Origin: an uncultured Crocinitomix sp.
Lineage (GTDB): Bacteria; Bacteroidota; Bacteroidia; Flavobacteriales_D; Crocinitomicaceae
Length of the DNA: 64,000 nucleotides
Reading direction: 5' to 3'
NCBI GenBank assembly: GCA_905478225.1
Contig: CAJQHR010000005.1
Location: forward strand, 1-64,000
Below are positions 31,498-48,897 of the stretch, piece after piece (position 1 is the stretch's first letter; each line of letters starts with the position of its first letter). The position numbers and the translations under genes are program-made. The notes under the pieces are model-generated. The model worked only from the letters and a program-made list of their open reading frames with translations. It had not been told where the DNA came from and ran no database searches.

Positions 31498-32301
31498 TTA
31501 CTTAACGATAGATAAAATCCATGTTGCTTCAGATGTATAGACATCATTATCAATTGTAGTAGTAGTTCCACCAGAAGTGAAGCTAAAAGTACCAGAATTA
31601 GATTCGCTAGTTTTCCAAATCATTTCTTTACCTTTTAACTGATCAATATCAAAAGTTTGAGAAGCCTCGCCACTTAAGTAGTTGTCCGTTGAAGAATAGG
31701 ATTCTGAAGGATTGGTAATCGTAGTATTAGCATTAATATTAAATAGAACAATAGTTTCAGTTGATGCAGAATTAGATGTTAACGTATTAAGAACAACCCT
31801 TTCTTTATTTTTGTAAGTATCTTCTACTTTCCCTAAGAATGACCAGTTTCCTGTTTCAGTAGTTACTTCTACAGTACTAGTAGTTCTAGCGATTTCTGTA
31901 ACGATTGGTTCACCCCACATATCAAAAGAAACATCATAGACGGTATCTATAAAAACAGTAGTTGTATTCCATTCTTGTGTCCAAGAACCATCTTTTTCAA
32001 TTACAATCTGGGCTTTATTCAAGGTAACATTTGAGCTGTTAGTTGTTGTTGTTGACAAATCAGCGTCATAGTAGGAATAAGAATTCGTAATGATGTTTTC
32101 AGCTAAAGTTGAAGTTGAAGATTGGTAATCACCATTAAATTCAGTGTTAATAGAAGTAGCTGAATAACCTGTAACATCCCATGTTCCAGAAAACCTTGCA
32201 GTTCTAGAAATTAAGCTTAAAGCGGGATCATTTTCTCCTTTTTTACAAGAAGGTGTTAGCAACAAAGTAGCTGCGACGAAAGTTAAAAGTGTTTTTTTTA
32301 T
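31498..32301 (-). CDS. Lipoprotein, lipocalin-like, with no normal start codon
   Basis: The mature part starts at a lipobox Cys (LLTPSC) and reads KKGENDPALSLISRTARFSG then TWDVTGY. It is rich in Ser/Thr and beta-strand patterns, similar to small lipocalin-like lipoproteins of Bacteroidetes. The only standard start, a TTG at 32265, gives a six-residue pre-Cys segment, too short for a signal peptide. Reading further back in frame gives I-KKTLLTFVAATLLLTPSC, a perfect lipoprotein signal, but its first codon is ATA (32299-32301), with ATT at 32311-32313 four codons earlier. Either a rare start is used or the start was lost. Function unknown. It follows the broken third porV copy. Confidence 0.6.
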   Translation of the reverse strand: MKKTLLTFVAATLLLTPSCKKGENDPALSLISRTARFSGTWDVTGYSATSINTEFNGDYQSSTSTLAENIITNSYSYYDADLSTTTTNSSNVTLNKAQIVIEKDGSWTQEWNTTTVFIDTVYDVSFDMWGEPIVTEIARTTSTVEVTTETGNWSFLGKVEDTYKNKERVVLNTLTSNSASTETIVLFNINANTTITNPSESYSSTDNYLSGEASQTFDIDQLKGKEMIWKTSESNSGTFSFTSGGTTTTIDNDVYTSEATWILSIVK

Positions 32302-32308
32302 ATTTTTA

Positions 32309-33009
32309 TTAATTTGTTCCTACAAAAATAAAACAAAATCCCGAGATTAAAAAATCTCGATTAAATTCTGAAGCATACGATATTTTGTTTCTAAGATTAG
32401 ATGCTGTTATTCCCAAAGACCATGATGCATCATATCCTTTTAGGGTCATGTCGCTGTTCAAATACGAATATGAGATATCAGAAGCTATTGCTCGCCCAGG
32501 CTTGGTTAAAACATTTCCCAAATAAATGCCTCCCGTTAAATTGGAATGAATGTATTTTGCGTTTATCCCGAGTGCACTTCGCTCTGAAAGTTTAAACCCA
32601 TATGCCCCAACAAATTCAAATTCATTTGGACTAAATTCGCGAATTAAATTCCCTTGTTCATCAGTAATACTAATGTAGCCGATATCAAAATAAGTTATCG
32701 ATCCACCAAGCGCATGACGGTTACCTAATTTTGCATATCCGCTCCAATTCCAAAAATGAATGTCGTCAATTAACTCATCCAACCATGGCGAATAGTTAAT
32801 GCTAATTTCTGCCTTCTTTTGAGAAAAGGCCAATTTTGATGTGTTCCAATGCAGTGCGTTAGCATCAGGACTTGTTGCTGCACCAGCATCCCCCATTCCA
32901 GATGACCTTGCGTCTGGAGCAATTGTAAGAAAAGGAACTGCTGTACTAATTTGGGCTTTTAATTCTGGAAAGGTTAAAACGCAAATGCAGAAAAAAGAAT
33001 GAATTTCAT
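32309..33009 (-). pseudogene. Third porV copy: N-terminal half only, frameshifted signal peptide
   Basis: MGDAGAATSPDANALHWN, YSPWLDELIDDIHFW and NLIREFSPNEFEFVGAYGF match the intact PorV at 34973. Translation from the ATG at 33009 hits a stop after 11 codons. Adding one T to the six-T run at 32991-32996 restores a full signal peptide (MKFILFFCICVLTFPELKAQ) in frame with the rest. The 3' end is also lost: similarity stops at NRDFL, about halfway through the barrel, and a short unrelated tail ends GTN. Divergence from the other two copies is larger, so this is the oldest paralogue. Sequencing error could explain the frameshift but not the missing half. Confidence 0.8.
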
Positions 33010-33068: not shown

Positions 33069-34297
33069 TTAATTAGTCAGACTTGAAATCTTATTGTTAC
33101 CGAATTTGAATTTAAGTGAAAAACGAATAGTATTGGCCAATGGATTTGTTCTTTTTAGCGCAGCTAAATAAGACACATCAATACCAAAAACACTGTAGTA
33201 AATTCCAGCACCAAACGTAAAGTATTTTCGATCCCCTTTAGCTCTGTGCTCATAGAAGTATCCTCCATGAATTGCTAAAACATCACTATACCAATACTCT
33301 AATCCACCACCAATATTAATTTCGTTTAATTCTTCTCTGAACTTACTGCCATTTTCAACAATTGCGCTTCCATCCTCGGCTACAAGAACATTTCCTGGTG
33401 CATCATAAAAAGACTGAATCATACCTTTAGTAACACCTAAATCATTTTCTTTACCCTACAATATTTCACCATCACCATTTCTTACAGGCAAGGTTGGTAC
33501 TAATAATTTATTAAAATCAAAAGTAGTTGTTAATGAGTTATAATCATCAAATTTAACATATAGAGCCGTTCCAAAACGCAAGTTTGCCCGCAAGAAGTCA
33601 CGATCCGCTTCAAATGTATAGGCCATTTTATTCCCGATATTAGAAATGCTTGTTCCAATAGAAAAGGTTGCATCTCTACCTCCTATATCTAAGTCCTCGT
33701 TAAAATAAGAGTAAGACAGATCAACCGCACCAGCAACGCCTGCTTTTGAACTTGTTGTGCCAACATCAGCACCACCAGTTAAATTTGAATAAACAAACTT
33801 ACCATTGAAGCCTATTGCACCCGATCAGATAATTTAAAAGCATATCCGCCTAACAACTCAAACTCATTGGGATTAAAATCCCGAATTAAACCTCCGTTTG
33901 CGTCTGTAAATGTGATATTACCTAATGAAAAATAACGCATTGAGCCTCCAATGGTATGATTTTTACCAATTTTAGTATAACCACTTAAGTAGGATAAGTG
34001 AATGTCATCCACCAATTGTTTTAACCATGGAGAGTAGGGCACTGAAAACTCAGAATATTCCTTAGAAAAAGCCAATTTTGACGTATTCCAATGAAAAGAA
34101 TTTGGACCAGGAGATGTGGCAGCACCAGCCTCTCCCATTGCACTTGCCCTGGAATCTGGAACAATTATTAAAAAGGGAACTGCAGTTGTAATCGTGTTTA
34201 ACTGAATTGTAAATTCAGTGTCATCATTCGAAATAACTTGGGAAAACCCAGAAACTGTAATAAATAACGAGGAGATATAAGCGATACTTTTTTTCAT
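33069..34297 (-). pseudogene. Second porV copy, inactivated by a frameshift and a stop
   Basis: This is a near full-length relative of the intact porV at 34973. The N-terminal part (33812-34297, MKKSIAYISSLFITVSGFSQ) and the C-terminal part (33069-33422, ending KFGNNKISSLTN) are almost identical to it. Against the intact copy one base is missing at 33821-33825, where GCACTTCTGTCAG became GCACCCGATCAG. An in-frame TAG at 33456-33458 replaces the serine in EILSG. Two independent lesions make a sequencing artefact unlikely. It cannot produce a full PorV. Confidence 0.88.
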
Positions 34298-34485: not shown

Positions 34486-34986
34486 TTAAACTTTGTAAAT
34501 CAAGACGGTTGCAAACGCCTGAATTCCCAAACCTTTGCCAACGAAGCCCATTTTCTCTCCACGGGTTGCTTTAATTGAGATTTGATCAACCTTTGCTTGA
34601 AGAATTTCGGCAATAATTTCCTGCATTTTTGGAATATGCGGATTCACTTTTGGATTTTCAAGAAGTACTGTGCAATCTAAATTGCCTAGCGCATACCCTT
34701 TTTCTTGAATTAGTACGAAGGTATCTTTTAACAGTAATTTGCTGTCGGCATCTTTATAACGTGGATCTGTGTCAGGAAAATGAAATCCGATATCTCTTAG
34801 ATTGGCTGCTCCTAATAATCCGTCACAAATGGCATGCAATAATACGTCTGCATCTGAATGGCCAAGCGCGCCGAATGAAGACGGAATGTATACGCCACCA
34901 ATAATTAGTTGACGTCCTTCAGTAAGTTGATGAATATCTACTCCGGAACCGATTCTAAAATTAGGAAGTGGATTACTCGCCGCCAC
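34486..34986 (-). CDS. ispF: 2-C-methyl-D-erythritol 2,4-cyclodiphosphate synthase
   Basis: IspF forms the cyclic diphosphate of the non-mevalonate isoprenoid pathway. The product is 166 aa, close to the usual 157-165. Zinc ligands lie in GSGVDIHQL and the conserved GALGHSDADVLLHAICDGLLGA, read as LGHSDADVLLHAICDGL. The C-terminal KATRGEKMGFVGKGLGIQAF is standard. No ATG fits, so the GTG at 34986 is the likely start. It overlaps the porV stop by 14 bases, implying coupled translation of porV and ispF. A metabolic gene among T9SS genes is odd but the overlap looks genuine. Confidence 0.95.
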   Translation of the reverse strand: MAASNPLPNFRIGSGVDIHQLTEGRQLIIGGVYIPSSFGALGHSDADVLLHAICDGLLGAANLRDIGFHFPDTDPRYKDADSKLLLKDTFVLIQEKGYALGNLDCTVLLENPKVNPHIPKMQEIIAEILQAKVDQISIKATRGEKMGFVGKGLGIQAFATVLIYKV

Positions 34987-36202
34987 CCGAAACTTTATTG
35001 TTACCGAATTTGAATTTAAGTGAAAAACGAATGGTGTTGGCTAATGGATTTGTTCTTTTCAGCGCAGCTAAATAAGATACATCAATACCGAACACACTGT
35101 AGTAAATTCCAGCACCAAACGTAAAGTATTTTCGATCCCCTTTAGCTCTGTGCTCATAGAAGTATCCTCCATGAATTGCTAAAACATCACTATACCAATA
35201 CTCTAATCCGCCGCCAATATTAATTTCGTTCAATTCTTCTCTGAACTTACTGCCATTTTCTAAAATTGCAGATCCATCTTCGGCAACTTCAACATTGCCT
35301 GGGGCATCATAGAAAGACTGAATCATTCCTTTTGTAACACCAACGTTGTTTTCCAAGCCAGATAATATTTCATCATCTCCGTTTCTTACAGGCAAGGTTG
35401 GTACTAATAATTTATTAAAATCAACTGTAGTTGTTAATGAGTTATAATCATCAAAATCAACTTTCAAAGCCGTACCAAAACGCAAGTTTGTTGGCAAGAA
35501 ATCACGATCAGCCTCAACCGTGTAGGCCATTTTATTTCCGATATTTGAAATACTTGTTCCGAAAGATAAAGTTGCATCATTCTCACCTAAGCTAAGATCT
35601 TCATTAAAGTAAGAATATGATAAATCAACCGCACCAGCCAGACCCGGCTTGGTAGTTGTTGTTCCAGCGTTGATTCCACCAGTTAAATTTGAATAAACAA
35701 ATTTACCGTTAAAGCCAATTGCACTTCTGTCAGACAATTTAAAAGCATACCCGCCTAATAATTCAAATTCATTGGGACTGAATTCACGAATTAAATTCCC
35801 TTGATCATCTGTAAAGGTGATGTTACCCAACGAAAAATAACGCATTGAACCACCAATTGTATGGTTTTTCCCGAATTTTGTATAACCACTCAAATAAGAT
35901 AAATGAATGTCATCTACCAATTGCTTCAGCCAAGGTGAATATGAAACTCCAAACTCAGATTTCTCTTCGGAAAAAGCCAATTTTGACGTATTCCAATGAA
36001 AAGAATTTGGGCCTGGAGAGGTAGCCGCACCAGCGTCCCCCATTGCACTTGCTCTAGAATCTGGAGCAATAATCAAGAAAGGAACTGCAGTTGTAATAGT
36101 GTTTAACTGAATTGTAAATTCAGTTTCATCTTTCGACACCGATTGAGAAAACCCCGAAACTGTGATGAATAATGATGCGATATAAGCAATACTTTTTTTC
36201 AT
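34973..36202 (-). CDS. porV: T9SS outer-membrane shuttle protein PorV (intact copy)
   Basis: PorV is a 14-strand FadL-like barrel that binds C-terminal-domain cargo at the secretion channel and delivers it to PorU. The product is 409 aa with a signal peptide ending SGFSQ. Family blocks are TTAVPFLIIAPDSRASAMGD, GAATSPGPNSFHWNTSKLAF, SPWLKQLVDDIHLSYLSGY and FSPNEFELLGGYAFKLSDRS, and the C-terminus NTIRFSLKFKFGN is a barrel strand. It lies downstream of the porU genes, as porU-porV do in other Flavobacteriia, and overlaps ispF. Two broken paralogues follow. Confidence 0.93.
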   Translation of the reverse strand: MKKSIAYIASLFITVSGFSQSVSKDETEFTIQLNTITTAVPFLIIAPDSRASAMGDAGAATSPGPNSFHWNTSKLAFSEEKSEFGVSYSPWLKQLVDDIHLSYLSGYTKFGKNHTIGGSMRYFSLGNITFTDDQGNLIREFSPNEFELLGGYAFKLSDRSAIGFNGKFVYSNLTGGINAGTTTTKPGLAGAVDLSYSYFNEDLSLGENDATLSFGTSISNIGNKMAYTVEADRDFLPTNLRFGTALKVDFDDYNSLTTTVDFNKLLVPTLPVRNGDDEILSGLENNVGVTKGMIQSFYDAPGNVEVAEDGSAILENGSKFREELNEINIGGGLEYWYSDVLAIHGGYFYEHRAKGDRKYFTFGAGIYYSVFGIDVSYLAALKRTNPLANTIRFSLKFKFGNNKVSGGGE

Positions 36203-36387: not shown

Positions 36388-38462
36388 TTAGAGAATAACT
36401 AGTTTCTCAATTTTCTCGGCTTTATTCCCTTGCTCCGTTTCTATAGAGAGTCGATAAACATATACACCTCGACCTAATTTATCTCCGTAATCATCTATAC
36501 CATTCCAATTTATCCCTTCACTTCGAAAACCTTTAGAATGAACCGTTTCAATAATTGTTTTTACTAATTTCCCAGAAACAGTAAAAATTTCCACCTTAAC
36601 GTCTAAGGAATTACAGACTTGATTATGTTCAAAATAAAAGTCTGTATTTGTTGTGAAAGGATTTGGATAGTTTAGCAAATGTGAAATCCCAATTTCTTCC
36701 TCGTACACAACAATAAAGTCCAAGGATTGTTCTGATGAATTATTATTGACATCCCATACTTTAAATACGATTTGATGTGGGCCTTCTTCCAATTCTGACA
36801 ATAAATAAGAAACCTTACCACTTTGATATGTATCTAAATCGGCTTCATAAAAATTATTTAGAATAATTGCGTCTGCGGTATTGTTATCAATAATCATGGT
36901 GATATCGTGTCCAATGCCGTTCCCCGTTGTATTGACTCCATTTTCATCACTAATATTTGCAAGAAAGGTTGGATTAGCATTCGTTAATCCGCCGTTTACA
37001 AAATTCTCATCATTCATAAAAAGTTCGATTAATGGCCCAATATCATCATCAATTCCACCTGGGGTGACACCACCTACAACGACCGTTGTATCAAATCCAT
37101 AATTATGCCCTATTTCCGTGTTACTATAATAGCTTAATTTTCCTTTTCCAATCACATAATCAATGTCTTTAGGAACAACAAAAGTATATGTAAATAAGCC
37201 ATTTTTAAGCGTTGACTTACCTTTATATACAATATTATTTTGCTCTGAAAATTCTTGGATAATCCCAGCCGAATTTTGACCAAGCGTTTTCTTGTCTTTC
37301 CATTTATCAAAAACAGTTGGATAGACAATTCCATTATAACCTGTCAGCACATTTCCAAAATCATCTTCTACATGACCTTTAACTGTAATTTTTGAAAGGG
37401 CTTTTAAAGTGTCAACTCCCGATTCAATTGCTACCCCATTTATTTCATCCGTTATAATTCTTGGGTTTGCTTTACCCAGTTTGAGCGCAGGATCCCCCAT
37501 CAGTGCAAAGTGACGCATATGATTATCCCCCAGTGTTATATTTTTAGTTCTACGGATGATTTCTCCGAGGCCTAAAGGTTCGCCATCTTCTTCCTCAAAA
37601 ATTACGCGATATAAGTTACGTACTAATATTCCGTTCACCGTTATAGAAACTGTCCGTGTTGTGGTGAGCAAACCTACTGCCCCACCATAAGGCGTTGTTA
37701 ATGTAATTTCACCTGCCGAAATTCTCCCAGGATCATCAAATCGACTAAATTCACAAGTGGCGGAAATGAAAATTGGCATATTATTGATGTTTAACCAATT
37801 TTGAATCATGGGAATGGAAACTACGCGCTCAAGTGCCAGTCCAGTTTCTCCACCATGTCCCACATAATTAAAAAAGGAAGGTACCTTTATTGATGTTCTG
37901 GTTAATTGCATCTTCTACATCTGGATATCTTTCACCTCCAGAAGTCGCAATTTGTTTATAAGCCCCTAAATATATTTTAACCATATTAATTTCGGGGTGA
38001 TTCTCGGTTACGATATCACTAATATCTTCGCAATCACCAATAAAACCATTATCAGACCCGACATCATCAATATCATCAGCCATTAAAACCACACGATTTC
38101 TCCAATCACCAAAAGTTGAGGCATATCCATCTGTATCACACTGAACCCCAAAAGCATTGCTGTATAAGGATGATCCGTAATTCATATAGTGTTCAATTTT
38201 ATTTACAACATCTTCGGCTGTTTCAATGTCTGATACAGGAATCCTTCCAATACCGATATCTAACATTTCTGTTGGTTTCATTTCCTCATCATCATCTAAC
38301 AGGCCGAAAAAATCATCAGAAGAAAAGGACTGTGTATAACTTTCAACTGCTGGAAATCTTGGTGGGCTATTGTAAGTTGGTAATAAATAATTATTATTTG
38401 CAATTCGATTTAGAGGGTCATAAGTTCCATCACCAAACAGACACAGATATTTTAATGTATTA
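36388..38462 (-). pseudogene. Second porU copy, C-terminal half, frameshifted
   Basis: Read from 38462 downwards, this piece begins at NTLKYLCLFGDGTYDPL and continues to the end of PorU (KAEKIEKLVIL). It matches the intact PorU at 41795 throughout, including the catalytic-site segments NYVGHGGETG and ISATCEFSRFDDPGR. One extra base in the A-run at 37870-37875 breaks the frame after INKGTFL. Without it the two open parts (37868-38462 and 36388-37911) join. It also lacks a start codon of its own because the gene is interrupted at 38462. The C-terminal sorting-type domain is nearly identical to that of the intact copy. Confidence 0.88.
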
Positions 38463-38628
38463 GGTGATTAAAGAAGCTATTCCTCCAACGCTTTCAAAGC
38501 CATCAAGACGTTCAAAATATGGTTTGATTTTGCTCCCGTCAAGGTCACTCGTATCCTTCACCTTCAGGCTGTGTCCATATATAAGATTCACCATCAATAT
38601 CAATCCAAATTTTTAAAGAATCAATCAT
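38460..38628 (-). pseudogene. Small unrecognised gene fragment inside the porU insertion
   Basis: An ATG at 38628 reads MIDSLKIWIDIDGESYIWTQ and stops after GEGYE. A one-base shift continues with DLDGSKIKPYFERLDGFE and ends GGIASLIT at 38460. Together they look like one 55-residue protein broken by a frameshift. I do not recognise the family. It fills the left edge of the insertion. Confidence 0.4.
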
Positions 38629-38737
38629 ATTATTAATTTTTATTTACTACGCTTAGCATAAAAATAATAATAAAAAGCTTTAAATAGTTTTCTAAATAAG
38701 GATTATACTTGTAAATTGCATCCAGTAAAAACAAATA

Positions 38738-39424
38738 ATGAAAAAAATTCTACTCTCTTTAGTTATTGCTTTAGGTCTAACTCATTCAACACAAGCGCAA
38801 GTTGGTTGCGACATGATGAACTTAGTAGTTAATGTGTCTGATACTGCCTTGGTTAAATTATATCATCCCGGCCACTATTTAACTTGGCCACAAAATGAAA
38901 ATATTATTGTTTGGGAGATTACAGATTCTGAAGGTATTATTATTGCTGACGACACATTAATTGATAACAGTGATTTTTTGTTTTATCATAATATTCCTTT
39001 TACAGATACAATGAATGTTACTGCACTTTTAACAAATGACTCAGCTGGAGTTGCATGTTTAATAGAAGACCAATTATATTGGGAGGTAACAGAACTTTTT
39101 CCAGGTGTTTTTACTGGAAGGTGGGAATTTGTTCATGGTAATGTAGGTGCAGATGTAACAAATACAACAGGTTTTGATGATATCGAACCTACCACTGCAA
39201 GTGTATTTCCAAATCCATCAAGTGATGTAATAAATATAAGCTTAGCTAAAGGTCAACTTCAGGCAATCGAAATATATGATTTGACAGGAAGTCTTGTTTT
39301 TAAAACAAATTTAAATTCAAATAACTTCAAACTGAAAATTGACAACTATGTATCTGGAACATATTTGCTTAGAATTATTGATGAAAAAAATGAGGTCACT
39401 AATTCAATTATTATAAAAGACTAA
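38738..39424 (+). CDS. T9SS-secreted protein with C-terminal sorting domain, inside the porU insertion
   Basis: The product is 228 aa with a signal peptide (LVIALGLTHSTQAQ) and a middle part of about 120 residues with no recognised domain (YHPGHYLTWPQNENIIVWE). The C-terminal 75 residues are a T9SS type A sorting domain: SVFPNPSSDVINISL, IEIYDLTGSLVFKT, SGTYLLRII and NSIIIKD. It would therefore be cargo for the PorU/PorV machinery encoded beside it. It is on the opposite strand from the porU halves. Its stop codon lies within an attC-like palindrome, as in integron cassettes. Function unknown. Confidence 0.85.
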   Translation: MKKILLSLVIALGLTHSTQAQVGCDMMNLVVNVSDTALVKLYHPGHYLTWPQNENIIVWEITDSEGIIIADDTLIDNSDFLFYHNIPFTDTMNVTALLTNDSAGVACLIEDQLYWEVTELFPGVFTGRWEFVHGNVGADVTNTTGFDDIEPTTASVFPNPSSDVINISLAKGQLQAIEIYDLTGSLVFKTNLNSNNFKLKIDNYVSGTYLLRIIDEKNEVTNSIIIKD

Positions 39425-39480
39425 CGTTTGCTAACAAAACCTAAACTGCATAAGAACGCAGTTTAGCGTAAACGTTATGC
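39422..39480 (+). repeat. attC-like palindrome at the end of the cargo gene
   Basis: TAACGTTT (39422-39429) pairs with AAACGTTA (39470-39477). GCTAA (39430-39434) then pairs with TTAGC (39463-39467), leaving GT bulged. An alternative inner stem, CTAAACTGC/GCAGTTTAG (39441-39466), is also perfect. AAC near one end, GTTA at the other, bulged bases and a length of about 60 bp fit integron attC sites, and the site begins in the stop codon. Only one such site was found and no integrase, so the identification is tentative. Confidence 0.4.
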
Positions 39481-39660
39481 ACAATAGAAGGTTTGGGTGT
39501 GCTATGCTCGAGAGATTCCCAGAATAGGTAACACCCAAACATGCCCGGCAATATATAAAAGTTTATCAATGAGCTGATCTCTTTCTTGAGTTGAATTAGT
39601 ATAAAAACCAAGCTCAAAATATGGCCGCTGTTTAATTTTCTCAATCTGTAGGGCTTATCC

Positions 39661-39894
39661 CTAAGATATTCTATGAGCTCTGCTGTATTTTTTATGAGGC
39701 TTACACATTTTCATAATGGGGTGTTTGGTGTTTTTACGCTGTCTAATGCCATTGTCAACTTGATAATAAATGGTCTTACTGTTAATTTCAAGATTTTTAA
39801 AATGAAGCAGTAACCACAAGTTTCTGATGGTGTCAACATGTAATCTAAAGCTTTTATGGTCTGAGTAGAGTTTAATGCTATTTATTAAATAGGA
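39661..39894 (-). pseudogene. Unrecognised open remnant at the right edge of the porU insertion
   Basis: A 77-codon frame without a start codon reads SIKLYSDHKSFRLHVDTIRN, LWLLLHFKNLEINSKTIYYQ and MKMCKPHKKYSRAHRIS before a TAG. It is basic and low in repeats, so it could be the end of a DNA-acting protein such as a transposase, but I do not recognise it. The rest of 39481-39660 shows nothing. Confidence 0.3.
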
Positions 39895-41702
39895 TCATAT
39901 AAAAAGTAATTAAAAAATAAAAATTCTGGATCAACTGCAGCACGATCATAAAACATTTTAGCAATCCATCTCACTGCAACAGGGTCAGCAGCTCCTCCGC
40001 CAAACTCATTATACACCAATTGAATATCGACAACATAGACAGTGAGTCCTTTATTCCGGTGTAAACTTGCTAAGCGATCAGCTTGCGGGCGAAGGGACTC
40101 ATGTGTCAAAATCAAATAATCCGCTTGTGCAAAACCATGCAGATTTTGATTCGCAATCTTACCCAAATAAGTGCCATTTAAGACAGGACTTTTGCATTGA
40201 TTTTTATTAAAGGCAACATAAGTTCGCACTGTATCTGTTTCATGTATAAATGCGTAATTCGAACCCGTTAATGTTCCGCTGACCTTTTTCGTATTGTATG
40301 GGTCGGTTACCTCCCAAACCAGCGTTGCTGAATTTGCGTTTGAAATGGTATAGCGATTAACATTTCCAAGTCCATCACTTTTGACATCTCGAACCACAAG
40401 AGGATTCACCCCCATGCGCAAATTCTTCACATAATTAAATAACATATAATCTAACCAACCCTCAGATGCCGGAGAGGTGCGTTCAAATGTTAGTTGAATG
40501 TTGAAATTCTCTGTTGCCGAAGAGAAGGTTGACTCCGATTTTTTAACTGTTGCGGCGGTATAGGCTCCGCCAAAATTCTCCGCTACTATGGTATCCACAT
40601 GTAGGCCATTTATATCGATTTTCAGTTGTGAAACTCCGGAGCGGCTTTCTGAAACTAACTGTGTCTTTAAATGAACAGGTTCAGTGATTACGCGGTTTTC
40701 AGAATTAATTATGATGGATTTTGTTAATTGACTTCCTTGAAAGTATTCGCCATACCACCTGTCGCCAGATTTCAACAAGTTTTCTTCATTAAGTTCATGC
40801 AAGGTATAAGCGCTAAATGAACTTATATCATTTGTAAATGGAGCTGTGGAATTTTCAATATTCCCAATTCGCTTAGGTGCATCTGAATTATCAATGTGAA
40901 TGAAGAAATAAGCTAAGGAATCAATTTTATTTCTGCTTGCATTAAAATCTGACGAATTGGCAATTAGGTTCTCAGTGCCTTTTGCGTAAAACATAATGTA
41001 ATCTTCTGAATCAAATGACAAATCATCCTCTCCAACAATCACAATCGAATTTTTGATTAAATCATCTGGTCGATAATCAGAATTGTTATGGGATATTTCT
41101 GGAATATGATTTCCATAGATGTTGATGCTTTTTGGATTAATTGAATTTACAGCAATTCCAAGTTCTGAAAGGTCACTATAATTTAGCGTATAAATTCCCT
41201 CTGATTGCACACCAATTTTGTACCAATCTCCAGAAGCTAAAACAGAAACAGAAGCAAACTCTGCGTCTCGATCTTGTTTTCCAGGAAGCATAGCTCCAGA
41301 TACAGACACTTTAATTGTTTTTAAGATTTCTACGTTTCCTCCACGATAGACAATCGGGTTATACTTGGCGGTGATATAATTTTCATTTTGAGTAGTACCA
41401 AACGAAATTTCAACATTTGTAGCGTTTGGCAACACACTCTTATCATAATGCGACGGAAAATCAATTTTTTCGTAAACTAGTGACTCAACTTCGTAAGAGA
41501 AATCGAATTTACCCCGTAATTTGATTTGTTTTGTTGTGTTAGAGAAAATCTCTCCTGTAAATCCATCATAAGCACATGGAAAACAACGATTATCTTCTTC
41601 AACCCAATCACAATCAAACTGAAAGTTAAAATTCTGAGACCAACTCAAGCCAGAAAAAAATGGCAAAAGAAGTAAAATAAGTAGTTGCTTTTTAGCTGAC
41701 AT
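39885..41702 (-). pseudogene. Second porU copy, N-terminal half, cut by an insertion
   Basis: The frame encodes 605 aa with a signal peptide (LLLLPFFSGLSWSQ) and matches the N-terminal part of intact PorU: DREAEFASV-like RDAEFASVSVLASGDWYK, YRPDDLIKNSIVI, YFIHIDNSDAPKRIG and AVRWIAKMFYDRAAVDP. Similarity ends at 39925; the last 13 residues come from the inserted DNA and a TAA follows. The catalytic C25 region lies in the detached half at 36388-38462. A secreted N-terminal fragment could still be made, but it could not act as a sortase. Confidence 0.88.
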
Positions 41703-41794
41703 TTGGCAATTCGTTATTATGGGAATCCGTATTCAACTCGTAAACGAAACTAATCCCCCGTTATTGTCAAAATTATAAGAAAACTTCCAGAAAT

Positions 41795-44700
41795 TTATAA
41801 GATGACCAATTTCTCTATTTTCTCTGCCTTGTTACCTTGTTCAGTTTCAATAGATAGACGATAAACATATACGCCGCGTCCTAATTTATCGCCATACTCA
41901 TCTCTTCCGTTCCAGTTAATTCCATCACTGCGGAAACCAGCCGTATGCACTGTTTCTATAATTGTTTTTACTAATTTACCAGAAACTGTGAAAATTTCAA
42001 CTTTAACATCCAGTGAATTACACACCTGATTATGCTCAAAATAAAAATCAGTATTGGTGGTGAAAGGGTTTGGATAATTCAACAAATGTGAAATGCCAAT
42101 CTCTTCCTCAGCCACGACTATAAAATCGAGAATAGACTCAGATGAATTATTGTTAACATCCCAAACTTTGAACACCAACTGATGCGGACCTTCTTCCAAT
42201 TCTGACAATCGATAGGAAACTTTACCACTTTGATAAGTATCCAAATCAGCTTCGTAAAAGTTATTCAAAATAATTGGTGCCGCCGTGTTTCCATCAATAA
42301 TTAAGGTGATGTTATGTCCGATTCCATTCCCAGTTGTATTAATTCCGTTTTCATCATTGATATTTGCTAAAAACAAAGGATTAGAGTCAGTCAATCCGCC
42401 ATTCACAAAGTTTTCGTCATTCATATACAAGTCTACTTCTGGACCAATATCATCCGCAATTCCATCTGGATTTACACCGCCAACAACAATTGATGTATCA
42501 AAACCATAATAATGCGCATTTGTAGTATTTCCGTAATAGCTGATTTTACCTTTACCGAATGAATAATCAATATCTTTAGGCACAACAAAAGAAAAAGTGA
42601 ATTGACCATTATTAACTGTTGACTTACCTTTATAAACAATATTGTTTTGTGTATCAAACGGTTTGACGGGAGAGGCAATATCTTGTCCGAGAGTATAACG
42701 CGTTTTTCGTTTATCGAAAACGGTAGGATAGACCAAACCGTTATAATTCGTCAATAATGCGCCAGATGAATTTTCAACGTGACCAGTTACTGTGATTTTC
42801 GATAAAGCTTTTAGGGTATCGGTAACCATTGATACGTTAACCCCATTAATTTCATCTGTAATAACTCGCGGGCCGGGTTTCCCTAATTTTAGCGCAGGAT
42901 CACCTAACAATGCAAAATTTCGCATATTATTACTTCCTAAGGTGAGGTTTTTTGTGCGTCGAATAATTTCACCTAATCCAAGGGGTTCACCATCTAACTC
43001 ACTAAATAATTCCGTGTATAAATTTTGAACCAAAATTGTATTGACCGTAATGTATACTAAGCGCGTAGTAGTTAATAGGCCAACTGCACCACCATAAGGT
43101 GTCGTTAATGTCGTTTCTCCAGCAGACACTCGCCCAGGATCATCAAAACGACTAAATTCACAGGTAGCTGAAATAAACACGGGCATATTATTAATATTTG
43201 ACCAATTTTGAATCATTGGTATTGAAACAACGCGTTCTAAAGAAAGCCCCGTTTCTCCGCCGTGCCCAACATAATTAAAAACTAAGGCGCCCTTGTTCAT
43301 ATTTTGATTTATAGCTTCCTCAACATCAGGATATCTTTGACCGCCTGAAGTCACCGTTTGTTTGTATGCGTCTAAATAAATCTTCACAATATTGACCTCA
43401 GGATGATACTTTTCAGTCGTGTCGCTTAACGATTCACAATCAGAAACAAATTGACCGTTGTTCTCATCATCTGCCATGAGCACAATTCTATTTCTCCAAT
43501 CTCCAAAGGTGGAAGCATAGCCATCCGAATCACATTGGATTCCTGATGTATTGCTATATAAGGTAGAGCCATAGTTCATGTAATGCTCAATTTTATCAAC
43601 AACCTGTTCAGCAACCACAAGGTCCGACACAGGAATTCTTCCAATACCAATATCAAGCATATCTGTGGGCTGCATAGCCTCAATATCATCTAATAGGCCA
43701 AAGAAATCATCCGCCGTAAATGAGGATATAAAATCTACTGGACCAGCTTCGGGACTATTATAAGTTGGCAATAAGTAATTATTATTTGGAATTCGGTTAA
43801 GCGGGTCATACGTTCCATCACCAAATAAACAGAGATATTTCAGCGTATTATCTGGATCCACGGCTGCTCTATCATAAAACATTTTTGCAAACCATCTTAC
43901 CGCAGCGGGATCAGATGCACCACCACTAAATTCATTGTACACAGGTTGAATATCAATAACGTGAACGGAAAGTCCGTTGTTACGGTGCAAATTTGCCAAA
44001 CGCTCTGCTTGCGGCCGAAGAGATTCGTGCGTAACAATGACGTAGTCTACTTGCGGCAAACCGTGTAAGTTCTGGGTGGATGTTTTACCAAGATAATTTC
44101 CTGAAATAATTACGCTTTTAGATTGATTCACGTTAAATGCAGCAAATGTTCTAAGCGAATCCGCGTCCATTGTATAGGTATAATTAGCCCCACTCAATGT
44201 GCCGTTTACTTTATTTACGTTGGAAGGATCTGTTACCTCCCAAACTATTGAACTGCTATTGGCATTTGCCAATGTATAACGATTTACAGTTCCAGGACCA
44301 ACTGCACGCAAGTCACGTACCAACAATTGGTTGATTCCCATGCGCAATTTTTGAATATAGTTGAATTCCATATAGTCTAACCAAGCTTCAGCAGCAGCCG
44401 AAGTTCTGTAAAATATCAAATCAACAGCCAGGTTTTCAGTTCCAGATGTGAAACTTACAGAATTGCCTTCGTTCGTTGCTACTGTATAACTTCCGCCTGC
44501 AGTCCCCGCCTCAATATCATCCACTTCAATACCATTTACCCTAACAATTAAACCAGAAGTTCCTGACTTGCTATTAGAAACGTACTTTGTTTCTAAATTT
44601 ATGGGTTGTGAGACATCTCTATTTTCAGCATTAATTGAATAACTAGCTGTTAATGTCGATCCTTGAAAATGTTCTCCGTACCAGCCATCCCCAGATTTTA

Positions 44701-45616
44701 AAAGATTGACATCATTGTTCTCGTGTAAGGCGAACGTAGTAAAAGACGTAACCTCGTTTGAAACCGGGTTGGCTGAATTATTCAATGTACCTATCCGTTT
44801 TGGTGCATCAGAATTATCTATGTGAATGAAGTAATAACTCAATGAATCAATTTTGTTTTTTCTTGGATAAAAATCAGCAATATTGGTTGTTAACTTTTCT
44901 GGTCCCTTGGCATAAAACAAAATATAATCATCACTATCAAAACTTCCGTCCCCATCTCCAGGAATTGAAATGGCATTTTTAATCAGGTCATCTGGTCGAT
45001 ACTCCCAATTGGAGTGTGACAGCTCAGGAAGGTGATTACCATAAACATTTATTGAATTTGGATTTAATGAACCTACAGCAACCCCCATATCAGCTAAATC
45101 ACTGTAATCTATTTTATGCACGCCGTCTGAAGATACGCCAACTTTATACCAATCGCCAGATGCCAATACAGAAACAGATGCAAATTCGGCATCCCTATTT
45201 TGTTGATCAAAAATTGGCGATCCACTTATAGAAACTTCGATCTCCTTTAAGAGCTCAATTTTTCCATTTCTATTAACAATTGGATTATAAACTAGCGTGA
45301 TAAAATTTTCTTGGCGAGACTCTCCAAAAGTCACACTCATTTCAGATTCAGAAGGCAATGCATTTTTATCGAAATATGTTGGAAGTTCAATCGTTTCATA
45401 TTTAACATTTTCGATTGAATATGTGAACTCATAATGCCCGCGAACTTTGATTTGTTTTGTAATCGTTGAAATTACTTCTCCGTTCACCTCATTATAATCA
45501 CATGGAATGCAACGATTCTTGCCAGAAACCCATTCAGTTTGAAAAGCAAAATCAAACGATTGAGACCAGCCCGCGCCCGCGCAGAGAAGCACAACTAAGA
45601 GAATAGAATTTTTCAT
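41795..45616 (-). CDS. porU: T9SS sortase PorU, C25 gingipain-like (intact copy)
   Basis: PorU cleaves the C-terminal sorting domain of T9SS cargo at the cell surface and attaches the protein to the envelope. I use the ATG at 45616 (MKNSILLVVLLCAGAGWSQ), which gives a clean signal peptide and 1,273 aa; the frame is open to 45658. The C25 domain carries the His of NYVGHGGETG (about H785) and the Cys of ISATCEFSRFDD (about C819). The C-terminus (LLNYPNPFTTNTDFYFEHNQ ... GRGVYVYRLSIE) is a sorting-type domain, as in known PorU. It is divergent from a PorP/SprF-like gene and gldJ and followed by its broken paralogue. Confidence 0.95.
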   Translation of the reverse strand: MKNSILLVVLLCAGAGWSQSFDFAFQTEWVSGKNRCIPCDYNEVNGEVISTITKQIKVRGHYEFTYSIENVKYETIELPTYFDKNALPSESEMSVTFGESRQENFITLVYNPIVNRNGKIELLKEIEVSISGSPIFDQQNRDAEFASVSVLASGDWYKVGVSSDGVHKIDYSDLADMGVAVGSLNPNSINVYGNHLPELSHSNWEYRPDDLIKNAISIPGDGDGSFDSDDYILFYAKGPEKLTTNIADFYPRKNKIDSLSYYFIHIDNSDAPKRIGTLNNSANPVSNEVTSFTTFALHENNDVNLLKSGDGWYGEHFQGSTLTASYSINAENRDVSQPINLETKYVSNSKSGTSGLIVRVNGIEVDDIEAGTAGGSYTVATNEGNSVSFTSGTENLAVDLIFYRTSAAAEAWLDYMEFNYIQKLRMGINQLLVRDLRAVGPGTVNRYTLANANSSSIVWEVTDPSNVNKVNGTLSGANYTYTMDADSLRTFAAFNVNQSKSVIISGNYLGKTSTQNLHGLPQVDYVIVTHESLRPQAERLANLHRNNGLSVHVIDIQPVYNEFSGGASDPAAVRWFAKMFYDRAAVDPDNTLKYLCLFGDGTYDPLNRIPNNNYLLPTYNSPEAGPVDFISSFTADDFFGLLDDIEAMQPTDMLDIGIGRIPVSDLVVAEQVVDKIEHYMNYGSTLYSNTSGIQCDSDGYASTFGDWRNRIVLMADDENNGQFVSDCESLSDTTEKYHPEVNIVKIYLDAYKQTVTSGGQRYPDVEEAINQNMNKGALVFNYVGHGGETGLSLERVVSIPMIQNWSNINNMPVFISATCEFSRFDDPGRVSAGETTLTTPYGGAVGLLTTTRLVYITVNTILVQNLYTELFSELDGEPLGLGEIIRRTKNLTLGSNNMRNFALLGDPALKLGKPGPRVITDEINGVNVSMVTDTLKALSKITVTGHVENSSGALLTNYNGLVYPTVFDKRKTRYTLGQDIASPVKPFDTQNNIVYKGKSTVNNGQFTFSFVVPKDIDYSFGKGKISYYGNTTNAHYYGFDTSIVVGGVNPDGIADDIGPEVDLYMNDENFVNGGLTDSNPLFLANINDENGINTTGNGIGHNITLIIDGNTAAPIILNNFYEADLDTYQSGKVSYRLSELEEGPHQLVFKVWDVNNNSSESILDFIVVAEEEIGISHLLNYPNPFTTNTDFYFEHNQVCNSLDVKVEIFTVSGKLVKTIIETVHTAGFRSDGINWNGRDEYGDKLGRGVYVYRLSIETEQGNKAEKIEKLVIL

Positions 45617-45794: not shown

Positions 45795-46787
45795 ATGAAA
45801 AAAATTATTATTGGGTTTCTTTTAATATTTGTTAACGCTACGTCGTTTGCACAGGATCCCGAATTTACACAATTTTACGCCAATCCGATTTATTTAAATC
45901 CGGCAATGGCAGGGACTCATGGTTGTCCGCGATTAAATTTAAACTACCGTAACCAATGGCCGTCTATTTCTGGCGCATTTGTGACCAATAGTGTTTCGTA
46001 CGATCAATTTGTGAATGTTTTACAAGGTGGTGTAGCATTAATGGTTACCAATGACATGGCAGGAAAGAACACGCTGAACTGGTCTACGATTAATTTAGCG
46101 TATTCTTATCACCTACAAGTTTCGCGTAAGTTCACTTTATTATTTGGTGCGCAAGCAGGATGGAATCAGAAATTTTTAGACTGGAGTAAATTAACCTTCG
46201 GAGATCAAATTGATCCAAGAAGAGGATTTATTTATCAAACTGGAGATTTACCACGGGGTAATTTTTGGGGTGACGGAGGAGATTGGGGAACCAAAGGATT
46301 TTTCGATCTATCTGCAGGGATTGTAGGTTACTCTGAAAACTTCTATTTTGGATTTGCGGCAAAACACTTAAACACACCCGAAGAAAGTTTAATCCTAAAC
46401 CCTGATGGTCAAAGTAATTTACCAATGCGATTTACTGGACATGTTGGAGCCAACATTGAATTCGGAAAAGGATCACAATACGCAAATGTTACTTCTATCT
46501 CTCCAAATGTTATATATACCTACCAAGACGGCTTTATGCAGTTAAATGTTGGTACTTATATTAAATATGGTGCCTTTACAGCAGGTGCATGGTGGAGAGC
46601 AAGAGACGCATTTATTTTATCAATTGGAATTGATGCTGGTGCATTTAGATTTGGATATAGCTATGATATCACAATCTCGCCATTAACGAACGCTTCTGGA
46701 GGTTCTCACGAATTATCTTTAGGCTTTAATTTTAGTTGTAAAGACAAACCAAAACGCTTTAGAACAATATCATGTCCATCTTTCTAA
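45795..46787 (+). CDS. PorP/SprF family T9SS outer-membrane protein
   Basis: PorP/SprF proteins are outer-membrane barrels that partner T9SS components or anchor large secreted adhesins. The product is 330 aa with a signal peptide ending ATSFAQ. The family hallmark DPEFTQFYANPIYLNPAMAG follows, then CPRLNLNYRNQWPSISGAFV. Beta-strands continue to a C-terminal GGSHELSLGFNFSCKDKP. It lies 82 bp upstream of the gldJ start and divergent from porU. Genomes usually hold many paralogues of this family, so I do not assign porP or sprF. Confidence 0.92.
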   Translation: MKKIIIGFLLIFVNATSFAQDPEFTQFYANPIYLNPAMAGTHGCPRLNLNYRNQWPSISGAFVTNSVSYDQFVNVLQGGVALMVTNDMAGKNTLNWSTINLAYSYHLQVSRKFTLLFGAQAGWNQKFLDWSKLTFGDQIDPRRGFIYQTGDLPRGNFWGDGGDWGTKGFFDLSAGIVGYSENFYFGFAAKHLNTPEESLILNPDGQSNLPMRFTGHVGANIEFGKGSQYANVTSISPNVIYTYQDGFMQLNVGTYIKYGAFTAGAWWRARDAFILSIGIDAGAFRFGYSYDITISPLTNASGGSHELSLGFNFSCKDKPKRFRTISCPSF

Positions 46788-46869
46788 AAAAAAGATTGTA
46801 ACCATTGTTTTGAGTTTTGTTATAGCATAAAGGATTAAGAAAATGAATACACGAATTAAATCATATAAC

Positions 46870-48897
46870 ATGAAGGTGAATAAACTTTTAATAGTTCTGT
46901 TGGCTTGCGCTGCTGCAATATCTTGTGCGCGTGAAAGATCAAATACAACAGGTTGGGAGTATAACAATCCTGCAAATGGTGGATTCCAAAAGGTACCCTA
47001 TTTTGATCAGGAAACTGGTCCAGGTTTAATTTTGGTTGAAGGTGGAACTTTTACAATGGGTAGATCTGAGCAAGATGTGACTTACGAATGGAACAACATT
47101 CCAAGGCGTGTAACGGTTTCTTCTTTTTATATCGACCAATTTGAGGTAACTAACTTTAACTGGTTAGAATACTTATATTGGATTAAGCGTACTTATGAAG
47201 AATATCCAATGATTCATAAAAATGCTTTGCCTGATACACTTTGTTGGAGATCTCCAATGGCTTATAACGAGCCTTATGTAGAGTATTACCTGCGTCACCC
47301 ATCTTACCAAAACTATCCAGTGGTTGGTGTTAGTTGGGCACAAGCAAATGATTTCTGTAAATGGAGAACTGACCGTGTAAATGAGTTTATCTTAATTCGT
47401 GAAGGAGTGCTTACTTTAAATCCTGATCAATCTGGAGAGCCATTTACAACGGATGCTTATTTAGCAAACCAATATCACCCACAAGAAGAGAAATATCTTC
47501 GTGATTTAGATCCGAAGCAAGGCTGGAGTGGAAAACGAAAAGATTTAGGACAACGTATTGTTCGTATGGAAGATGGAATTCTTTTACCGCGATACCGTCT
47601 ACCAACTGAAGCTGAGTGGGAATTTGCTTACTATGGTTTAATTGGAAGTATGACAAACCCTGAAGATCCAGGAGTTGTTGAAAACAGAAGAACTTATCCT
47701 TGGACTGGACACTGGGTTCGTCAAGATGACAAAGAGTTTCAAGGAGAGATCCGCGCAAACTTTGTAAGAGGACGTGGTGATTATATGGGAGCCGCTGGCG
47801 CATTGAATGATGCTGCTGATATTACTGCTCCTGTTGATTCATACTGGCCAAATGACTACGGTCTTTACCACATGGCGGGTAACGTTTCTGAGTGGGTAAT
47901 GGATGTTTACAGACCTTTATCACATGAAGATTTTGATGAGTTCCGTCCTTTTAGAGGAAATGTATTCAAAACTAAAGTATTAGGTAACGACGGTGTGATT
48001 GATGAGAAAACAACTCAAATCATTTATGATCCGCACGGAATTAAAGAATACTTACACGAATTTGAGAGTAAAAGATACCAACGTATTTCTGCTCAAGAGC
48101 ATATTCCAGATAATACCGATTCAACGTCAATCATGTTTAACGGAATGTCAGGAAATATTAAATCAAGAAATGACATTGATTACTATAACAACCCACCTGA
48201 GCAGGTATACTTATCAAGAAACAAAGTAAAAGATTCAATGGAATTACTTTTATTAGATGAGTTGAACAGAGTGATTGATCAAGCGATAACAATGGCTGAT
48301 GATGAATTCTATATGGAAGCGTCTGAAACGATTCAAACAAACATCTTTGATGGTTTATTTGATGGTGTTGATCCGCGATTTATCCGTTCAGATGGAATTG
48401 GAAATGAGTATCCTTTAGAAATCATTCCAATCTTAAGACAGGGTATTTCTGAATATATTGTAAATACACCAGGTCGATTAAAATGGAGAACGGTAGTTGC
48501 TGAGGAAAACATTGATCGTAGAAACTATAGAAACTCTGATTATAGAGATGAGTTAGATGGTGACTTCGAATCTTCAAACCAATATGGAGATGATCAAAGA
48601 AGATTAGAAATTAATGGTGGAATTAGAGATCAATCATTAGTGATGTATCAAAATGATCATGAGGAATTTGACTTAACTGGTGGTGGAATTAAACCAAATG
48701 ACAGAACAAGTTGGCCTACAACATTAATCTCTGACAATGCACGTGTGTATAAAGGAGGATCATGGAGAGACAGAGCTTACTGGATTGTTGGTTCGAACAG
48801 AAGATTCTTAGATGAAGAATTATCATCTGCGACAATCGGATTCAGATGTGCTATGGATCGAATGGGAAGCCCAAGAGGTTTAGGTCGATACAGATAG
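46870..48897 (+). CDS. gldJ: Gliding-motility/T9SS lipoprotein GldJ
   Basis: GldJ is an outer-membrane-associated lipoprotein needed for gliding and for GldK stability. I start it at the ATG at 46870, giving a lipoprotein signal with Cys19 (LACAAAISC); an upstream ATG at 46843 would add nine residues. The product is 675 aa, longer than the 561 of F. johnsoniae. It has a formylglycine-generating-enzyme-like fold: ILVEGGTFTMGRSEQD, FYIDQFEVTNFNWLEYLYW, YRLPTEAEWEFAYYGL, MAGNVSEWVMDVYRP and RVYKGGSWRDRAYWI ... TIGFRCAMDRMGS. The catalytic cysteines of true FGE enzymes are not in the expected place. The extra length is an acidic linker between about 380 and 590. Confidence 0.95.
   Translation: MKVNKLLIVLLACAAAISCARERSNTTGWEYNNPANGGFQKVPYFDQETGPGLILVEGGTFTMGRSEQDVTYEWNNIPRRVTVSSFYIDQFEVTNFNWLEYLYWIKRTYEEYPMIHKNALPDTLCWRSPMAYNEPYVEYYLRHPSYQNYPVVGVSWAQANDFCKWRTDRVNEFILIREGVLTLNPDQSGEPFTTDAYLANQYHPQEEKYLRDLDPKQGWSGKRKDLGQRIVRMEDGILLPRYRLPTEAEWEFAYYGLIGSMTNPEDPGVVENRRTYPWTGHWVRQDDKEFQGEIRANFVRGRGDYMGAAGALNDAADITAPVDSYWPNDYGLYHMAGNVSEWVMDVYRPLSHEDFDEFRPFRGNVFKTKVLGNDGVIDEKTTQIIYDPHGIKEYLHEFESKRYQRISAQEHIPDNTDSTSIMFNGMSGNIKSRNDIDYYNNPPEQVYLSRNKVKDSMELLLLDELNRVIDQAITMADDEFYMEASETIQTNIFDGLFDGVDPRFIRSDGIGNEYPLEIIPILRQGISEYIVNTPGRLKWRTVVAEENIDRRNYRNSDYRDELDGDFESSNQYGDDQRRLEINGGIRDQSLVMYQNDHEEFDLTGGGIKPNDRTSWPTTLISDNARVYKGGSWRDRAYWIVGSNRRFLDEELSSATIGFRCAMDRMGSPRGLGRYR

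Follow-up and report, generated by a model that had tools for sequence, protein, structure and literature searches.

An old tandem paralogue of the PorU sortase, probably kept by selection and now broken by a cassette-like insert in an uncultured Crocinitomix

Introduction

PorU is a T9SS sortase by which secreted proteins are trimmed and anchored; enzymes of this kind cleave the sorting domain of their cargo and attach the cargo to lipopolysaccharide. The stretch of DNA analysed here (the window, 64,000 nucleotides) comes from an uncultured Crocinitomix, and a sequence-only reading of it had reported two porU genes in tandem, the second split by an insertion. Where such a second porU came from, whether it served its host and what broke it are the questions raised by this locus. 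No description of tandem porU was found in a literature search that covered few subscription papers. We consider it highly probable that the second copy is an old tandem paralogue of PorU, kept by selection and now pseudogenised in this genome by a lateral, cassette-like insert together with the gain of one base.

Genomes and search criteria

The window lies on contig C5 (157,753 bp) of its own draft Crocinitomix genome, G000 (3.52 Mb, 75 contigs), which was compared with the same-genus genomes G001, G004 and G006. PorU was compared across 59 relatives first and then across 245 genomes of the order, and the surveys of NF052324 and of integron integrases covered 150 Crocinitomicaceae genomes. 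The curated cut-off of NF033707 is 420 bits and the cut-off of NF052324 is 450 bits. Here porU2 denotes the tandem second copy of canonical porU, which is distinct from the NCBIfam family NF052324, named 'PorU2'.

Two tandem porU copies and the lesions in the second

Both copies are identified as PorU by Pfam (PF01364) and NCBIfam (NF033707). The first, porU1 (41795..45616, minus strand), encodes an intact canonical sortase of 1,273 aa with a full C25 domain, for which the closest solved structure is 6za2; base-by-base alignment shows an ATG start and no internal stop. The second, porU2, spans 41702-36388 on the minus strand and is a pseudogene in two parts, an N-half (39925..41702; 57% amino acid identity to PorU1 residues 5-612) ending at GATCCAGA and a frameshifted C-half (36388..38462; 81% identity to PorU1 778-1273) restarting at TAATAC. 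When the halves are joined at GATCCAGA|TAATAC, they match porU1 base by base with nothing lost or duplicated, and because of this seamless alignment the insert is exactly 38463-39924, or 1,462 bp. The tandem arrangement, the split and the size of a loss-free insertion, all put forward from the sequence alone, were thus borne out by alignment, as was an extra base in the C-half. This base lies in a run of six A on the plus strand (37870..37875), one base above what the porU2 frame allows, and shifts the frame ahead of NYVGHGG. The open reading frame 37911-36388 starts at an internal ATG in another frame, so the true homologous frame begins inside the A-run. A homopolymer lesion of this kind could be a sequencing error, and the insertion by itself still breaks porU2: it falls at codon 593, upstream of both catalytic residues, and the N-half reads 13 foreign codons into the insert before stopping at 39885.

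Compared with the usual PorU locus, this one thus has two tandem copies, the second without a continuous reading frame. Whole-protein matches to NF033707 above the cut-off were found for porU1 (1227 bits) and for the intact PorU2 of G004 (1231 bits), which, as in the PorU of P. gingivalis (PDB 6za2), keep the Cys/His motifs and match the whole model, whereas the two main pieces of porU2 in the window score 363 and 623 bits. When aligned to 6za2, PorU1 and PorU2 show the same catalytic His and Cys motifs, NYVGHGG and SATCEF, in every genome, and both motifs are still present in the C-half in the window. The death of porU2 was recent, since the window copy has lost no more invariant columns than the intact relatives have (5 versus 6). 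The window copy is a recent pseudogene, and the locus clearly exemplifies how a gene is born and dies rather than presenting a new system.

The order gldJ-porP-porU-porV-ispF is conserved across genomes. In the window, the conserved neighbours porP/sprF (45795..46787, plus strand; PF11751) and gldJ (46843..48897, plus strand; TIGR03524), both also supported by synteny, diverge from porU1 and porU2, and porV and then ispF come after porU2. The PorV shuttle encoded by porV1 (34973..36202, minus strand; PF19572, 5e-58; NF033710, 414 bits) is intact. A second porV beyond ispF is intact in G001, G004 and G006 and dead in G000, where its remnant (32309..32950, minus strand) has a damaged start and ends at about residue 242. 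Between ispF and this remnant lies a young extra copy of porV1 (33084..34297, minus strand; 89% amino acid identity) with a single frameshift near 33819. Across 31498-32950, the end of the second porV has been replaced by DNA with an unrelated 255-aa gene that has no NCBIfam match.

Origin and maintenance of porU2

Canonical PorU is a single copy in most genomes of both comparison sets. Within the genus, G004 carries an intact porU2 (an ORF of 1,289 aa, with its NF033707 match extending over the whole model) immediately after porU1. In G006, porU2 is uninterrupted at the insertion site and in the C-half, and its halves are separated only by a contig end; the idea that this break reflects a shared insertion was rejected, as the G006 sequence reads through the site, and porU2 is very likely intact there. 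In G001, porV directly follows porU and porU2 is absent. Related genomes therefore do hold an uninterrupted second copy, as had been proposed for checking, and the halves in the window are parts of one gene rather than unrelated genes. A tree of four neighbour proteins places G000 and G001 as sisters (100/99), so that porU2 is broken or lost in this pair and kept in the pair G004/G006. This provides a natural series for one sortase paralogue, from intact (G004, and very likely G006) through broken (G000) to gone (G001), ending with a single-sortase genome.

In both the N-half and C-half trees, a single clade with 100/100 support unites the PorU2 sequences of G000, G004 and G006. In the N-half tree it pairs as sister with the PorU1 clade of these genomes, with a support of 80/91, on which the placement of the duplication relative to single-porU Crocinitomix rests; the C-half tree leaves the exact position of the PorU2 clade unsettled. 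Synonymous differences between porU1 and porU2 are saturated in every segment of the alignment, and this extends to the final 200 codons, over which protein identity reaches 88-95%. The sequence-only reading had hinted at gene conversion, which was rejected on two grounds: each half gives a monophyletic PorU2, and saturation of synonymous sites holds throughout, even at 95% protein identity. One old duplication followed by purifying selection explains both the saturation and the monophyly, and the tandem duplication that gave rise to porU2 would have occurred in the ancestor of a Crocinitomix subclade.

Purifying selection on porU2 is indicated by the low dN/dS between the G004 and G006 copies (0.059 in the N-half and 0.025 in the C-half), and values among PorU2 copies range from 0.03 to 0.14. 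Saturated synonymous sites together with dN/dS this low mean that PorU2 was long maintained by selection, and in one sister lineage it remains intact. Among 500 generally conserved positions, 13 are altered in every PorU2 copy readable there, a pattern compatible with an altered role.

A rather unlikely alternative is that porU2 never had a specialised role and was redundant from the start, a near-neutral duplicate in the course of being lost. It would fit the absence or breakage of porU2 in the sister genomes G001 and G000, the substitution rate of PorU2, about 1.5-2 times that of PorU1 between the same genomes, and the tandem copy with two stops in G172. Against it stand the saturated synonymous sites combined with low dN/dS, and the 13 conserved positions altered in every readable PorU2 copy. 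The past specialisation suggested from the sequence alone is plausible because porU2 was long under selection, and the second copy did once have some use, as shown by its whole frame and purifying selection among sister genomes. The intact paralogue may be an active peptidase/transpeptidase that handles part of the type A cargo together with PorV; in relatives it might supply extra capacity, serve a subset of cargo or use a different anchoring chemistry.

Tandem porU birth and death occurred more than once, as indicated by two cases outside the genus. In G172, a member of another genus, the first of two tandem porU copies at the same locus is the one with the two stops, and G057, from another family, has two intact PorU genes with 66% identity, of which one occupies the standard locus and the other lies elsewhere.

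Composition and source of the insert

The insert (38463..39924) occurs as one full copy in the genome. Its cargo gene (38738..39424, plus strand) is intact, lies on the strand opposite to porU2 and encodes a secreted 228-aa protein carrying a T9SS sorting domain of type A (PF18962, 2.4e-14; TIGR04183, 46 bits). Just past its stop codon lies an attC-like hairpin site (39423..39480, plus strand; z = -4.0), followed by the leader of a next cassette (39470..39541, plus strand), which is common to L163, L164 and L167 with identities of 90%, 81% and 83%, and by a degenerate remnant of a second gene (39541..39882, minus strand) that is 46% identical to a portion of a 219-aa ORF from G137. At the other end, the left 84-87 bp match genome G148 starting at the insert border (38463..38546; 97-98% identical to G148:C2, L162:6649-6735). 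Protein family searches with the end fragments of the insert returned nothing significant. The block 38771-39436 is 93-94% identical in DNA to G115 and G148, although PorU identity to this genus is only 47-48%, which argues that the cargo block moved laterally.

Given a draft assembly and a cargo block this close to that of another genus, the interruption could be taken for an assembly artefact in which foreign sequence was misjoined into porU2, and the G006 contig also breaks inside the gene. We regard this as very unlikely. Both misjoins would have had to fall at the same porU2 base with every base kept, the insert has porU2 sequence on both sides, it combines remnants not found together elsewhere, and both ends of contig C5 are over 38 kb away from it.

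Several known kinds of mobile DNA were considered as the source of the interruption. The flanks show no target-site duplication, and the insert has no terminal inverted repeats, the longest terminal inverted match being 6 nt, a length equalled by 58.6% of shuffles. It contains no transposase or recombinase, and an insertion sequence was rejected on these grounds. It has no phage or plasmid match and no intron or other RNA family at the Rfam gathering threshold, by which an intron and a piece of a prophage or plasmid were likewise rejected. A single cassette cut by an integrase at its attC was also rejected, as the junctions do not fit: the attC-like site is located inside the insert and not at either border. 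The simplest reading is that integron-cassette-like DNA was brought in by illegitimate joining, with no dedicated transposase. About 1.46 kb of laterally acquired DNA, comprising the cargo gene, the attC-like site and gene remnants, would have entered porU2 at codon 593, and one base would have been gained further down the gene.

The same negative results bear on whether porU2 retains activity, either because its pieces are made as separate proteins and come together again or because the insert is excised. Such activity would account for the preservation of the catalytic motifs and of most of the sequence, and for invariant columns no more broken than in intact relatives. Against it, the N-half is without the catalytic dyad, the C-half is without a signal peptide and is itself frameshifted, and neither an intron nor a recombinase that could remove the insert was found; we think it scarcely credible, and keep to pseudogenisation by the insert.

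attC-like sites in relatives

The core of the insert's hairpin was found again in about thirty Crocinitomicaceae genomes. Sites in relatives have the same outer boxes and different stems, and individual contigs carry several of them, separated by single genes (L164, L167 and L170), against 0-0.2 expected from shuffles. Conserved outer boxes, non-conserved stems and repetition between single genes, the features that define attC sites, are therefore all seen in relatives; the insert holds one site. Arrays of sites without a recognised integrase occur in L164 (a G016 contig, 3.9 kb), in L167 (at 5465, 6155 and 8719) and in L170 (at 3538 and 5124). Elsewhere in G000 the hairpin core was found at just one place (C6, L007:1501-1538), where its outer box is damaged and an IS-type transposase is nearby.

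The insert and its relatives resemble integron cassettes and CALIN in their single genes between hairpins, YAAC ... GTTR boxes and variable stems, and the insert also in its movement across genera. CALIN are attC sites without an integrase, and here no match to the integron integrase model TIGR02249 exceeded the cut-off in the 150 family genomes; G000 has just two Phage_integrase matches, in ORFs of about 310-330 aa, and no integron integrase. Recombinases of about 380 aa in the family genomes match TIGR02249 in part. Unlike integron cassettes, the insert has borders that fall away from the attC-like cut point. Integrons were very scarce in this phylum in a large survey (PMC9024848), and the present sites point to attC-like cassettes carrying secretion cargo there. 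As a tentative possibility, T9SS cargo genes might travel from one Crocinitomicaceae genus to another in integron-like cassettes, moved by a recombinase that escapes recognition as IntI, and one such block might have broken an accessory sortase here. In G143 (L160:7508-12068), several T9SS cargo genes follow one another, and two of them have a terminal TAACGTT(T/C)GC almost identical to that of the window's cargo gene.

Accessory sortases in Crocinitomicaceae

The premise of a single porU, from which the sequence-only reading had started, does not hold for this family. NF052324 exceeds its cut-off in 118 of the 150 Crocinitomicaceae genomes, so two PorU-type sortases are the rule, and a second one is normal, in Crocinitomicaceae. 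As at the tandem locus, the NF052324 gene encodes an additional sortase related to PorU and adjoins a gene resembling porV, here NF052325 ('PorV2'). The NF052324 protein is about 1,700 aa long; tandem porU2 is instead a close relative of canonical PorU, and its membership in NF052324 was rejected at 103 bits (N-half in the window) and 152 bits (intact G004 copy) against 450.

In relatives the NF052324 gene is full length (about 1,730 aa). In G000 it is a stub of the first 94 residues (L204:5639-5920, contig C53) in a syntenic neighbourhood, adjoining an intact NF052325 'PorV2'. With this stub and a dead tandem porU2, G000 keeps one complete PorU-family sortase, the canonical PorU. Other accessory copies are thus also gone in G000, namely the NF052324 gene and the truncated second porV, and the loss of porU2 may belong to a broader reduction of accessory sortases in G000. 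With the series described above, the reason why certain T9SS bacteria hold on to two or three PorU-type sortases becomes testable through a comparison of cargo sets.

Another duplicated sortase was seen in G122, where contig C42 carries two tandem intact NF052324 copies (92174-94888 and 97417-100131). In G000, contig C7 encodes a C25-type protease of 751 aa that bears a type A sorting domain (L205:3822-6077) and is probably secreted cargo, not a sortase.
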